Shown in pieces: positions 25,772 to 32,165 of a stretch of DNA of 40,895 nucleotides. Below the pieces are notes generated by a model that saw only the letters and a list, made by a program, of their open reading frames with translations, was not told the origin of the DNA and ran no database searches. Made by a program: the position numbers and the translations under genes. Source of the stretch: a virus; the IMG/VR virus record IMGVR_UViG_3300028392_000124, positions 1-40,895 of that record; one strand, given 5' to 3'. Each line of letters begins with the position of its first letter. The stretch's first letter is position 1.

Positions 25772-26032
25772 TTAAAGTACTATTCTAATGTCATTCTCGC
25801 TAATGACTAGGTATTTTCCGCCTTCTATTCTTAATTCACTAGCATTAGTTTTATCGTAGTAAATTTTATCTCCAGGTTGAATACCTTTAACCAAATCACC
25901 TGTTAGAAATACATCGGCAAGTTTATACCGTATCTCTCTATCGTTTGCTTCAGTTATTACTAAACCAACTTTGTTTTTAACCTCCTCTTTAATTGGGGAG
26001 ATAACTATTGTTCTTCCAAATGCTTTTGCCAT
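25772..26032 (-). CDS. groES: Co-chaperonin GroES
   Basis: 86 aa, slightly shorter than the usual about 95 aa. Starts FGRTIVISPIKEEV; the mobile-loop region has VGLVI where host proteins have GGIVL, and the C-terminus keeps GDKIYYDKtnaSELRIEGGKYLVISENDI with the G-D-x-I and D-I landmarks. A heptameric lid for GroEL is expected, with the short loop chemistry suggesting tuning to the phage or host GroEL. Its ATG shares one base with the groEL stop (TAATG), and the order groEL then groES is the reverse of the normal bacterial operon. Confidence 0.85.
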   Translation of the reverse strand: MAKAFGRTIVISPIKEEVKNKVGLVITEANDREIRYKLADVFLTGDLVKGIQPGDKIYYDKTNASELRIEGGKYLVISENDIRIVL

Positions 26033-27630
26033 TACCCTTGTCTTTTATTAGTTATTGTAGCCTCTGTAGTCAATAAAATAGAGGAAACAGATACTGCATT
26101 CTCAACAGCATTACGAACAACCTTAGTCGCATCAATAACACCCATTTTAAACATATCCCCACATTCTTCTGTAATTACGTTATATCCATATCCTTTGGTA
26201 TCCTCTTTAAATATATCTGCTAATATTTCATCTACACCAACACCAGCATTTTTTAATATTTGGTCAAATGGAGAATGTAAAGCAGACATTATTGAAAAGT
26301 ATCCTTTATTGAAATCGCTTTGAGAATTTAATTCAAATGGGTCTTTAAACATTTTTAAGCCATTAAAAACATCAATCAATGCTATTCCTCCTCCAGGCAA
26401 AATTCCTTCTTCTAACGCAGCCTTTGTAGCTTTAATCGCATCATCAACTCTATCTTTCTTCTCCTTCATTTCAACCTCGCTATTAGCCCCTACTTTTACT
26501 ACAGCAATCCCACCACATAATCTGCCAAGTCTGTCTTCGTAGTGCCATAGGTCTAGTTTGTTTTCAGAGAGTGAGATAGATTCTCTTACGTTAGAAACAC
26601 GAGCCTCAATATCATCTATGTACTTCTCTCTATCTGTAATAAGAATAGTTTGGTGTACATCAGAAATACATTTAAAAGCCTCTCCTAAGTAAGATGCGTC
26701 AATAGTAGATAAATCATTCCCTGTTTCATCAGATGCAAGTGTAGCTCCTGTTAATGCACATAGGTCCTCTAGTAATTCAAACCTTTTGATACCAAATCCT
26801 TCAGGTGAAACCACATTAACTTTAATTACTCCTTTAGCTTTGTTTACGTTCAAAGTATTCATAACACCATCTTCAACATCAGAGATAATCAAGAGGCTTC
26901 TTTTGTTTTGCATAGCAGCCTCACATATTGGAAGAATATCCTCAAGACTTTTAATTTCTTGGTCTGAGATAAATACTAATGGGTTTTCTAACACACACTC
27001 TTGTTTCTGTTGGTTTGTTATTAAATAAGGAGAGTTATACCCCTTCTTAATTTTAGTTCCATCAATAACTTCAACGTATGTTTTAGAAGACATACTTTCC
27101 TCCATAGTTACAACACCATCAACACCAACTTTTAAGTAAGCACTTGCAATAATATCACCCAGCTCACTATCATTATTAGCTGAGATTCTAGCTACGCTTT
27201 TAAGGGTCTTGTTGTTTACCTTCTTACTTTGTTTTTTCAACGCTTCAACAATGTCGTTTGAAGCCATCTGCATACCCTTTTTAAACTGAGAGATATTTGT
27301 CTTTTCATCAATTAATGTAATTGCTTTGTTTACAATGCTTTGTGTTAATACTGCTGTGGTTGTAGTTCCATCGCCTGCGTTATCAGCACTTCTTATAGAT
27401 GCTTGCTTGATAATACTTGCTCCTAGATTTTCTGTGGGATCAGATAGATTAATAGACTTTGCTACTGTAACACCATCTTTTGAAAGGTGAGGAAGACCTC
27501 TCTCATCTTCTATTGCAACATTTCTTCCTGCTGCACCTAATGTAACTTTTACTGCGTTTGCAACAATGTTTACACCGTTAATTAATTTTTCTTTGGCATC
27601 ATCTCCAAAGAGGATTTCTTTTTCAATCAT
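26032..27630 (-). CDS. groEL: Chaperonin GroEL
   Basis: 532 aa. Nucleotide-site residues match E. coli numbering: KDGVTVAK with Asp52 and GDGTT with Asp87; further on, GGIAVVKVGANSEVEMKEKK then DRVDDAIKATKAALEEGILPGGG keeps the second ATPase region. The apical domain is present, so full cage function is plausible. The C-terminus ends TITNKRQG without the Gly-Gly-Met repeat tail of host GroEL. Phage-encoded GroEL usually serves folding of virion proteins, possibly the capsid protein here; that link is inference. It lies second in an operon started by a 44-aa gene under a TATATTTG box. Confidence 0.9.
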   Translation of the reverse strand: MIEKEILFGDDAKEKLINGVNIVANAVKVTLGAAGRNVAIEDERGLPHLSKDGVTVAKSINLSDPTENLGASIIKQASIRSADNAGDGTTTTAVLTQSIVNKAITLIDEKTNISQFKKGMQMASNDIVEALKKQSKKVNNKTLKSVARISANNDSELGDIIASAYLKVGVDGVVTMEESMSSKTYVEVIDGTKIKKGYNSPYLITNQQKQECVLENPLVFISDQEIKSLEDILPICEAAMQNKRSLLIISDVEDGVMNTLNVNKAKGVIKVNVVSPEGFGIKRFELLEDLCALTGATLASDETGNDLSTIDASYLGEAFKCISDVHQTILITDREKYIDDIEARVSNVRESISLSENKLDLWHYEDRLGRLCGGIAVVKVGANSEVEMKEKKDRVDDAIKATKAALEEGILPGGGIALIDVFNGLKMFKDPFELNSQSDFNKGYFSIMSALHSPFDQILKNAGVGVDEILADIFKEDTKGYGYNVITEECGDMFKMGVIDATKVVRNAVENAVSVSSILLTTEATITNKRQG

Positions 27631-29797: not shown

Positions 29798-30031
29798 ATC
29801 ATATAAGTTAGCCTTATAGAATGGTTGAGACCTATGTTGTATGTTTTTTTAGAATACCACATATCAGTAAGTTTTAGGTTATACCCCATTCTCCACCCTC
29901 TCACCTCTCCCCATAACCGAATATATTTAACCCCCCCATAATTATAATTACATTTTGATTTTAAACTTTTTGCCTTTTTTCCTCCTATATATGTAACCGT
30001 AAATAAATAACCCTGTTTTAATTTTATAGGT

Positions 30032-30087
30032 TTTTTTTAGTAGGTCCATTTTGCGATACCTTGAAAAAAGTTTTTTTAGATGGTCCA
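30032..30087 (+). repeat. Pair of direct repeats TTTTTTTAGnnGGTCCA
   Basis: Copies at 30032-30048 and 30071-30087, identical except that the two middle bases are TA in one and AT in the other; start-to-start distance 39 nt. They lie in the non-coding control region. Confidence 0.6.
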
Positions 30088-30363
30088 AAAGGTTGTGTTA
30101 AACCAGCTCTAAATTCTAAAAACAGTTAATTTGTTTAAATAATCAATTTACATTATTATGTTTTCATAGTTTATATATTATGCTGCAATAGTTTAAATAG
30201 TGTTTATATTACATTATATATATGTTTTCGTTGTCCTTATATATATACGTGTTTTAATAGTTTTATATGTTAATTATTTTAAATTGGATTAAAAAATTAT
30301 ATCCTTGATACTCAACAACTTACAAAATACTTTTATTTAATTATGTTAAAGTTTTGTTAAAAA

Positions 30364-30396
30364 TTTGGAAATAACATTTTAACCGCCGTATATTTG
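30364..30396 (+). promoter_or_regulatory. Strong Bacteroidota promoter (early)
   Basis: TTTG at 30364-30367, 21-nt spacer, TATATTTG at 30389-30396: a full match to the Bacteroidota -33/-7 consensus. It drives the rightward transcript starting with the 140-aa gene. Confidence 0.75.
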
Positions 30397-30399
30397 TAC

Positions 30400-30472
30400 C
30401 GTTGCAATGAAGCAACAAAAAACATATTATAACTAAATTAGTTTTCGGAGCTTTTTAAAACCGACTAAAAAA
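30400..30472 (+). promoter_or_regulatory. Structured 5' leader of first early gene
   Basis: About 70 nt between promoter and ATG. It includes the hairpin GTTGC-aatgaa-GCAAC at 30401-30416 and a possible second stem TTAGT...ACTAA with inner CGG...CCG. Such a long leader is exceptional in this compact genome and suggests control of stability or translation. Confidence 0.45.
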
Positions 30473-30895
30473 ATGAATACAACAGTAAAAAACACCAGTA
30501 CAAAAAAAGTAGCTACAAAATTGAGCGTTACTGAATTATTAAAAGCAACTACCGAAAAAATCGCAACCCCTAAAAAAACAAATTTAGAGAGACAAAACGA
30601 CCTTATAAATAAAGAGGACAAAACTACTTTTGACTGGGTAAAACTGGCAAATGTAACCGATAAAATAGAGGACAAAACTATTTCAAAGGTTTACAAAAAT
30701 TGTATAAAAAACGTTTATTTAAAAAATATAACGGGACTAACTAAAACACCTACTTTTGAGGACTTCAAAGCTAAAATGTCAGTAAAAGAAACTTATTCAA
30801 ACTGGGACGGATACAAAGCACTGGCTAAATTTAACGTAAAAAATAACACAGCTGCAAAGGTGAAAAGACAAAACAAAAAAGAGGCTAAAAAATAG
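30473..30895 (+). CDS. Basic early protein, unknown
   Basis: 140 aa, strongly basic. N-terminal half rich in Lys and Thr and probably disordered (MNTTVKNTSTKKVATKLSVT); C-terminal part helical (TFEDFKAKMSVKETYSNWDG) and ending KRQNKKEAKK. First gene after the strongest promoter of the window, so probably expressed immediately on infection; nucleic-acid binding or host takeover are guesses from charge and place. Its stop codon lies inside a hairpin that may end part of the transcription. Confidence 0.65.
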   Translation: MNTTVKNTSTKKVATKLSVTELLKATTEKIATPKKTNLERQNDLINKEDKTTFDWVKLANVTDKIEDKTISKVYKNCIKNVYLKNITGLTKTPTFEDFKAKMSVKETYSNWDGYKALAKFNVKNNTAAKVKRQNKKEAKK

Positions 30896-30901
30896 CCTTT
30901 A
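30882..30901 (+). terminator. Weak terminator hairpin over the stop codon
   Basis: AGGCTA-aaaaa-TAGCCT followed by only TTAAA. The stem contains the TAG stop of the 140-aa gene. The short T-run suggests partial termination or mRNA end protection. Confidence 0.45.
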
Positions 30902-30905
30902 AATA

Positions 30906-30955
30906 GGTGTAAAAGACTTGGCTTTTTTATCGGGTTCAATTTGCCCGATACACCA
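30906..30955 (+). ncRNA. Minimal tRNA-like fold 1
   Basis: A closing stem (GGTG with CACC, then A) encloses two hairpins: AAAAG-acttgg-CTTTT and TATCGGG-ttcaatttg-CCCGATA. The second loop begins TTCAATT, matching the T-loop consensus TTCRANY, and the 3' end reads CACCA. There is no D-arm. It resembles a reduced or decayed tRNA of about 50 nt; no standard tRNA can be drawn. Confidence 0.4.
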
Positions 30956-30956
30956 C

Positions 30957-31303
30957 TAATAAATGTAAGGAATACACCAAAAACAAACGTTTTGAGGTCG
31001 TTAACTGGCGAAATGCGAGGACTTCAAAAAAGGCGAAACGCTATGTTTGTTATAACGTGCAAAAATTCTGGAAATATTTAGTAACCTTTAATATGAGGGA
31101 CTGGCAAAGGTCTTGCCTACTAAATTTGACACGGAATACAAGAAACAACTACACTGAACCGTCAAGGGTGTAAGGCTATAAAAGTAGTCAGGTTTGAACT
31201 GCGAGGAAATTTATAGGGCTTTTTAAATACATTTAGAATGTATTATTTTAGTCAATACCATATTTGAAATATAGGGCAAAAAATAAAGATAATTATATAT
31301 TTT
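30957..31303 (+). ncRNA. Candidate structured RNA of unknown class
   Basis: No gene is visible in about 350 nt of a genome that otherwise has few gaps. Helices found by eye: P1 30982-30988 with 31045-31051 (7 bp); inside it P2 30990-30999 with 31020-31029 (10 bp, one G-T); P3 GCG-aaa-CGC at 31033-31041, so P1-P3 form a three-way junction; P4 GGCAA-aggtc-TTGCC at 31103-31117; P5 TTGA(ca)CGG 31126-31134 with 31159-31165; a helix 31150-31155 with 31167-31172 that interleaves with P5 as a pseudoknot; P6 AATACATT-tag-AATGTATT at 31226-31244. It ends at a perfect terminator. I matched it to no known RNA (not tmRNA, RNase P or 6S). Probably read from the 30364 promoter. Confidence 0.5.
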
Positions 31304-31337
31304 AGGCACACCTTATAAAATAGGTGTGCCTTTATTA
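31304..31337 (+). terminator. Strong intrinsic terminator
   Basis: A perfect 10-bp stem AGGCACACCT / AGGTGTGCCT with the 8-nt loop TATAAAAT, then TTATTAT. It closes the structured RNA region and sits 3-9 nt before tRNA-like fold 2. Confidence 0.8.
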
Positions 31338-31339
31338 TA

Positions 31340-31405
31340 TGGTATGTTGCAAGGTGCAAAGGGCAAAATTATTTTGTCTTATGGGTTCGATTCCCATCAT
31401 ACCAA
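31340..31405 (+). ncRNA. tRNA-like cloverleaf, 66 nt
   Basis: Acceptor-like TGGTATG pairs perfectly with CATACCA (7 bp), with A as the discriminator and no encoded CCA. Contiguous arms: TTGC-aaggt-GCAA (D-like); AGGGCAA-aattatt-TTGTCTT (7 bp with two G-T pairs, 7-nt loop); ATGGG-ttcgatt-CCCAT (T-arm with canonical loop). The arms use every base: 7+13+21+17+7+1 = 66, so positions 8-9, 26 and the variable loop are missing. The middle loop would present UUA, but the base before it is A instead of U33. It is either a degenerate tRNA or a tRNA mimic. Confidence 0.55.
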
Positions 31406-31453
31406 CAACTGCAATAGTGCAGCCAAACAATAAAATAATATAAAAAAAAGAAA

Positions 31454-31651
31454 ATGAAAAATTTAAGTCAATCAACTTGGGAGATGTGGTTTATTACATC
31501 AGTAACGGTATTTTTAGCAATGTTTTTTATCGGGGCGTTGCCAGGCAGTGTGGTCTTCTTCCCTTTATTCTGGTGGATGTTCGGGCCTGTAATCCTTAAT
31601 TTAGTAGCGTGTATTTATGTTGGTCTTAATTCACAATCACATGAGGAATAA
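31454..31651 (+). CDS. Small membrane protein with two helices
   Basis: 65 aa. Two hydrophobic helices (about 11-30, WFITSVTVFLAMFFIGAL, and 33-58, VVFFPLFWWMFGPVILNLVA) separated by a Gly-Ser turn, then the end GLNSQSHEE. Predicted early inner-membrane protein; possible superinfection exclusion or host-envelope role, not shown. The C-terminal Ser-Gln-Ser is encoded by the repeated DNA motif TTCACAATCA. Overlaps the next gene by 11 nt. Confidence 0.65.
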   Translation: MKNLSQSTWEMWFITSVTVFLAMFFIGALPGSVVFFPLFWWMFGPVILNLVACIYVGLNSQSHEE

Positions 31652-32053: not shown

Positions 32054-32059
32054 ATTTTG

Positions 32060-32067
32060 TATATTTG
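32060..32067 (+). promoter_or_regulatory. Bacteroidota -7 box TATATTTG of small RNA
   Basis: TATATTTG 5 nt before hairpin 1 of the kissing-loop RNA. No TTTG at -33, so strength is uncertain. It lies 7 nt after the preceding stop codon. Confidence 0.5.
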
Positions 32068-32071
32068 CAGT

Positions 32072-32157
32072 GAGCAATCCACTACTTGCTGCATACTTAT
32101 TTATAAAAACATATACAAACCCTTATTGAGTGTAGTGGCTCAGTAGGGGTTTTGTAT
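32072..32157 (+). ncRNA. Candidate small RNA with complementary hairpin loops
   Basis: About 86 nt between a TATATTTG box and a terminator-like stem. Hairpin 1: AGCAA-tccactac-TTGCT (32073-32090). Hairpin 2: AAACCC...TGAG-tgtagtgg-CTCA...GGGTTT (32117-32152). Loop 1 contains CCACTAC (32079-32085) and loop 2 contains GTAGTGG (32132-32138): seven consecutive Watson-Crick pairs filling both loops. They could kiss within one molecule or dimerise. A T-rich TTTTGTATTTT follows hairpin 2, consistent with a terminator. The homing endonuclease gene starts 9 nt later, so it may instead be the endonuclease leader. Confidence 0.55.
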
Positions 32158-32160
32158 TTT
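32117..32160 (+). terminator. Terminator-like hairpin before homing endonuclease
   Basis: Outer stem AAACCC/GGGTTT and inner stem TGAG/CTCA, then TTGTATTTT. If it terminates efficiently, it isolates the endonuclease gene from upstream early transcription, as is known for some phage homing endonuclease genes. Confidence 0.5.
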
Positions 32161-32165
32161 AAATT

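Follow-up and report, generated by a model that had tools for sequence, protein, structure and literature searches.

The window analysed here, a stretch of 40,895 nucleotides, holds most of the genome of a tailed phage that is akin to both uncultured and cultured phages of Bacteroidota. Its terminase is 82-88% identical to those of the nearest environmental relatives, 62% to that of MW202828 (Manatee Spring), 42% to those of the elemo phages of Flavobacterium and 39% to that of Cellulophaga phage phi19:3. The minus strand carries the late genes, the plus strand the early ones. The window also encodes a GroEL (26032-27630, minus strand) whose counterparts in large Flavobacterium phages are about 43% identical. 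Directly 3′ of the first early gene is a gap of 558 nt (30896-31453), in which the original prediction had placed a large structured RNA of unknown class, gene-free and set between two tRNA-like folds. Its location just downstream of the first early gene was correct, and a Bacteroidetes-type promoter-like site stands ahead of that gene; we call this site because of its position and not its rarity, since the pattern matches 7 times in the window against 3.75 expected. The features of the locus are collected in Table 1. An identical copy of the gap, present on a 63.5-kb contig with coordinates offset by one, brings nothing independent to the analysis; G001 is the same phage as the window, identical over the gap, and was left out of the count of independent genomes. 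Farther downstream, the gap before a GIY-YIG gene (32054-32165) folds with a z of -6.0 against shuffles into two hairpins whose loops carry the complementary sequences CCACUAC and GUAGUGG, a possible kissing pair, and these hairpins stand 3′ of a TATATTTG promoter-like box.

Table 1. Features at and around the gap between the first two early genes (window coordinates).
Feature	Position	Strand	Basis or remark
Promoter-like site, Bacteroidetes type (TTTG-N21-TAnnTTTG)	30364-30396	+	Upstream of first early gene
First early gene, 140 aa	30473-30895	+	Without family match
TLS1, tRNA-like: acceptor GGUGUA/UACACC, small arm AAAG/CUUU, T-arm UCGGG-UUCAAUUUG-CCCGA	30905-30956	+	z -2.88; descriptor
Gene-free interior	30957-31303	+	Frame, fold and shuffle tests
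Three-way-junction-like fold: outer helix, 30990-30999/31020-31029 helix, GCG-aaa-CGC arm	30982-31051	+	Minimum-free-energy fold
Core common to G002: P1 31176-31182/31210-31216; lower stem GGCU/AGUC 31217-31220/31250-31253; symmetric U-rich internal loop; P2 hairpin 31226-31232/31238-31244	31174-31253	+	Fold, compensatory pairs
A-tract GGGCAAAAAAU	31274-31284	+	Identical in G002; candidate third strand
Intrinsic-terminator-like hairpin, 10 pairs, weak U-tract	31304-31331	+	Different hairpin at same place in G002 and G009
TLS2, anticodon-less: acceptor UGGUAUG/CAUACCA, mini-D GCAAGGUGC, T-arm AUGGG-UUCGAUU-CCCAU	31340-31405	+	z -3.26; tRNA model; descriptor
Short hairpin CUGCA-AUAG-UGCAG	31409-31422	+	G002 equivalent AUGCA-AUAU-UGCAU
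Second early gene, 65 aa	31454-31651	+	G002 homologue 35% identical

No gene was found in 30896-31453, as had been claimed, and a BLAST search of the gap against INPHARED phages gave no match. The claim that the region resembles no known RNA class also held: in covariance-model searches no Rfam family matched it, GOLLD and ROOL included, and an identity with either of these was rejected. The Rfam scan of the window returned no match at the gathering cutoff, and in 30000-31500 only tRNA was relevant by E-value. A tmRNA in the window was rejected, since neither the tmRNA model nor ARAGORN calls one, as were hammerhead and pistol ribozymes, for which no Rfam-model or core match was obtained.

The helices named in the original prediction occur together in the minimum-free-energy fold, namely the 30990-30999/31020-31029 helix (9 of 10 pairs), the outer helix at 30982-30989 and the GCG-aaa-CGC arm; the resulting three-way-junction-like fold was absent from every relative examined. 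The terminator hairpin was likewise recovered with its ten pairs; it is G+C-rich and is followed by the tail UUAUUAUAUG, in which the U-run is interrupted. When compared with shuffled sequences, 30896-31410 folded better than chance (z -4.35), with most of the signal contributed by the two tRNA-like folds and by the stretch 31285-31335 that holds the terminator hairpin (z -5.65). The expectation that the interior is more structured than chance was not borne out (30957-31303, z -1.54, with 9 of 100 shuffles as good), the 5′ half (30957-31190) being modestly better than chance (z -2.7, 1 of 200 shuffles). What stands of the predicted large RNA is thus a structured non-coding early locus, and what was not established is a single large class, given that the interior alone folds like shuffled sequence and that only about 110 nt (31174-31284) are recognisably common with a relative.

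The two tRNA-like folds that flank the interior were assessed with a tRNA-elbow descriptor that asks for Watson-Crick pairing at six acceptor and five T-stem positions and for a loop of the UUCRA type. The strict descriptor matched the whole 40.9-kb window twice (30906-30954 and 31341-31403), both times on the plus strand and inside the gap, against a background of 4 matches in 9.8 Mb-strand (120 shuffled windows; 0.03 expected per window), which places both folds far above chance; as the descriptor was designed after TLS1 and TLS2 had been seen, the count is a guide and not a clean test, and recurrence in relatives is the stronger argument. TLS2 scored 28.3 bits against the Rfam tRNA model (RF00005), 0.7 short of the cutoff of 29, with an E-value of 1.4e-5 in this genome. 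It has the acceptor stem and T-arm of a tRNA, with 7 of 7 and 5 of 5 pairs formed. Its middle arm is predicted to be a long stem ending in a 3-nt loop in place of the 7-nt anticodon loop, and TLS2 is therefore without a usable anticodon; ARAGORN called no tRNA here or at any of the tRNA-like elements of the relatives. If acceptor and T-stem stack, as we assume, they would form a continuous helix of 12 bp in TLS2 and 11 bp in TLS1, close to the approximately 12 bp of an RNase P or RNase Z substrate.

Early regions were read, where contigs allowed, in G002, G009, G012, G013, G015, G017, G018, G019, G022, G023, G024, MW202828, elemoE, phi38:1 and phi19:3; the contigs of G008 and some others lack the gap region, and absence was not scored there. 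A tRNA-like element was present 3′ of an early gene near the operon start in five of these relatives (G002, G012, G009, MW202828 and G024), whose TerL identity runs from 82% down to about 62-64%, while the strict descriptor had a background of 1.0 match per Mb-strand in shuffled early regions. The acceptor sequences are all different and all still pair, several elements have the mini-D motif GCNNGGUGC, or one close to it, at the D position, and the distance from element to next start codon is 25-48 nt. In G012 the element lies 8 nt after the early-gene stop, and the element of MW202828, with the T-loop CUCGCGA, was found with a looser descriptor. The G009 element (L104 12229-12369) carries a 95-nt insert between the D-like arm and the T-arm, which could hold a pseudoknot and gives it a tmRNA-like topology, without a tmRNA call. 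A terminator-like hairpin stands 5′ of the element in the window, G002 and G009. Rfam matches obtained in relatives by an E-value threshold were mostly chance. True tRNAs occur in G022 and phi38:1, and those of G022 head the early strand. As a separate observation, an operator-like near-palindrome lies just ahead of several early genes, GTGTCGTTAACGACAC in one phage and TGTCGGAGTCGACA in the other (L101 13541-14170, MW202828; L114 8175-8695, G012).

In six other relatives, early genes are separated or immediately preceded by hammerhead ribozymes, four in G017 and one each in G019, G022, G023, elemoE and phi19:3, mostly within a few tens of nucleotides of the following start codon. Their scores are all below the Rfam cutoffs, the best being 44.7 bits against 48.5 (G022); those that were inspected had complete cores and stems, and the G019 hammerhead was found only by a custom descriptor. 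The four hammerheads of G017 (L106 6603-8095, minus strand) divide successive early genes, and Rfam hammerhead models weakly match three of the four sites. The cultured Cellulophaga phage phi19:3 (KC821608) has both a pistol and a hammerhead ribozyme between its early genes (L130 2370-2437 and 3776-3812, both minus strand), the pistol scoring above its Rfam cutoff, and the cultured Flavobacterium phage elemoE (NC_055854) has its hammerhead-like element (L128 10098-10154, minus strand; RF00008, E 8.5e-8) upstream of the first early gene. Among the genomes examined, none contained both a tRNA-like element and a hammerhead; this either-or pattern is suggestive, coming from about a dozen non-independent and partly fragmentary genomes. 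Phage hammerheads have been proposed to cut long transcripts into gene-length mRNAs (Perreault et al., 2011; PMC3088659), and our literature search found no description of an exchange between ribozyme and tRNA mimic.

Of the relatives, the divergent G002 alone has a comparably long gap (566 nt). For 31174-31259 of the window and L102:4337-4437 (minus strand) of G002 the same two-part structure was predicted independently, namely P1 and, after it, a hairpin whose internal loop is symmetric and U-rich. Pair counts were restricted to this block because MAFFT misaligned the two sequences 3′ of CAAUACC. Among the 18 core pairs, 3 were changed on both sides, 2 were broken and 13 were invariant between the two distinct sequences. 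Shifting the partners dropped the paired cells from 94% to at most 42%, and the covariation, drawn from two sequences only, was equalled in 53 of 500 shuffles. The internal loop reads UUUUA/AUUUU in the window and UUUUA/GUUUU in G002, with a pairing probability of at most 0.15 for its U residues, and lies in a stem between two helices, as in an ENE; the A-tract GGGCAAAAAAU, conserved in both sequences, is a possible third strand for it. Upstream of 31174, in the 5′ half, nothing aligned convincingly with G002. IMG/VR scans with the neighbouring genes gave the identical copy and G002 only. A search with the 316-aa gene also brought up a 95% relative, on a contig that stops before the gap, and nothing in genome_contigs. 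The only related sequences recovered by DNA patterns from the common core were the identical copy and G002; other hits were unrelated, and many of these were transcription terminators. G002, the one partly similar relative, points to a new class of large RNA as a possibility.

Taking these observations together, we propose, with about even confidence, that the gap is an RNA-processing site that punctuates the early operon. We favour this reading because both descriptor matches in 40.9 kb fall within the 558-nt gap and because in relatives tRNA mimics or, alternatively, self-cleaving ribozymes stand right before early genes; the elements, their excess over chance, their position and their recurrence are observed, and from them we infer recognition, cleavage and purpose. 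TLS1 and TLS2 would be tRNA-elbow mimics recognised by the tRNA-maturation enzymes of the host. RNase P would cut where the acceptor stem begins, on its 5′ side, and the 3′ side would be trimmed by RNase Z or by exonucleases. Such cuts would leave gene 1 and the downstream genes on separate mRNAs, the latter beginning about 48 nt before the next ATG, and if both elements were cut, the stretch of about 380 nt between them, containing the interior 30957-31303, would be released. The terminator-like hairpin before TLS2 would close the upstream product at its 3′ end and might terminate a fraction of the transcripts. The hammerhead and pistol ribozymes found at comparable intergenic positions in relatives would achieve an equivalent cut through self-cleavage. 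Several features speak against processing. Bacterial RNase P favours a 3′ CCA, and CCA is encoded after neither element, ACAA following TLS2 and none standing at the expected place after TLS1. In addition, the T-loop of TLS1 has 9 nt, and TLS1 has no counterpart in G002.

The elements might instead have no present function and be true tRNA genes in decay, left from a time when these stood at the head of the early operon. An origin from decayed tRNAs is plausible because G022 and phi38:1 also hold true tRNAs, which in G022 still occupy that position, and TLS2 falls just under the tRNA cutoff with its middle arm kept. However, six genomes with unrelated acceptor sequences show complete or nearly complete pairing in acceptor and T-stems, and in each of the six the anticodon arm is either lost or unusable; random decay should break the stems too, and we therefore regard simple decay as unlikely. 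A further alternative is that the whole interval makes up a single functional RNA, some 380-500 nt in length, that acts in trans and belongs to a new phage class; the tRNA-like elements would then be its ends, either processed or stabilising. The similar-sized gap of G002 with its P1, U-rich-loop hairpin, A-tract and three compensatory pairs would fit such an RNA, as would the folding of 30957-31190. It is harder to reconcile with the near-chance fold of the whole interior, the 5′ half that cannot be aligned with G002, the tRNA-like elements without a long RNA in G012, MW202828 and G024, and the pattern search of IMG/VR that gave no further copy, and we hold this explanation to be rather doubtful.

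An ordinary intergenic region, made up of a 3′ UTR, an intrinsic terminator with partial termination and chance helices, would account for the near-chance interior and for the terminator-like hairpin, which by position is also found in G002 and G009. It leaves the two tRNA-like matches and their recurrence at the same place unexplained, which makes it distinctly unlikely. The gap could also conceal a small protein gene in its longest stop-free frame, of 86 aa (30913-31173), which is longer than in 97.5% of shuffles (equalled in 49 of 2000). This frame has no ATG, GTG or TTG near its start and no standard start codon in its first half, gives no PHROG match and overlaps TLS1, and the syntenic gap of G002, where a conserved frame would have contradicted the original prediction, contains none comparable; a missed gene is accordingly very improbable.

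Beyond the single locus, the processing-site reading admits a broader and rather speculative extension, to which we give little credence at present, in which this clade of Bacteroidota phages would use interchangeable RNA-cutting elements, tRNA mimics or ribozymes, in its early operons, the mimics in the window excising an early RNA of about 380 nt with an ENE-like stability element. If true, related phages would perform one processing job with two unrelated RNA devices, in a natural swap of a self-cleaving ribozyme for a host-enzyme substrate. It would assign a definite role to the tRNA-like fragments of phages, which annotation leaves aside, and likewise to the hammerheads for which such cutting was put forward in 2011, and the idea is testable in cultured Flavobacterium and Cellulophaga phages.

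Compared with canonical tRNA (RF00005), TLS2 shares the 7-bp acceptor stem, the T-arm with a UUCGAUU loop and a small D-like arm with GG, but it lies below the model cutoff, has no 7-nt anticodon loop and no ARAGORN call, and its variable region is very short. GOLLD and ROOL resemble the gap as phage non-coding RNAs near tRNA-like sequence, but they are longer, and the gap has neither an Rfam match nor a demonstrated common elaborate structure. In mitochondrial transcripts, intergenic tRNAs mark the sites at which RNase P and RNase Z cut. The gap likewise has tRNA-shaped elements between genes, but these are not functional tRNAs, and their cutting is our proposal. The human lncRNA MALAT1 ends in an ENE-type triple helix followed by the tRNA-like mascRNA. 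The gap presents a U-rich internal-loop hairpin, an A-rich tract and a tRNA-like element in the same order, but with a terminator hairpin between the A-tract and the tRNA-like element; a triple helix here is hypothetical, and the resemblance would be convergence at most and serves as a lead only. Phage hammerhead and pistol ribozymes (PMC3088659; RF00008, RF00163, RF02679) take up comparable intergenic positions in early operons, before the next start codon, but they cut themselves; the window lacks them, and cutting there would depend on host enzymes. Known substrates of RNase P include phage M3 RNA, C4 RNA and the tRNA-like structures of plant viruses (PMC11143913), and among these M3 RNA and the C4 antisense RNA, although from different phages, are phage transcripts cut by RNase P, as we propose for the early transcript here.
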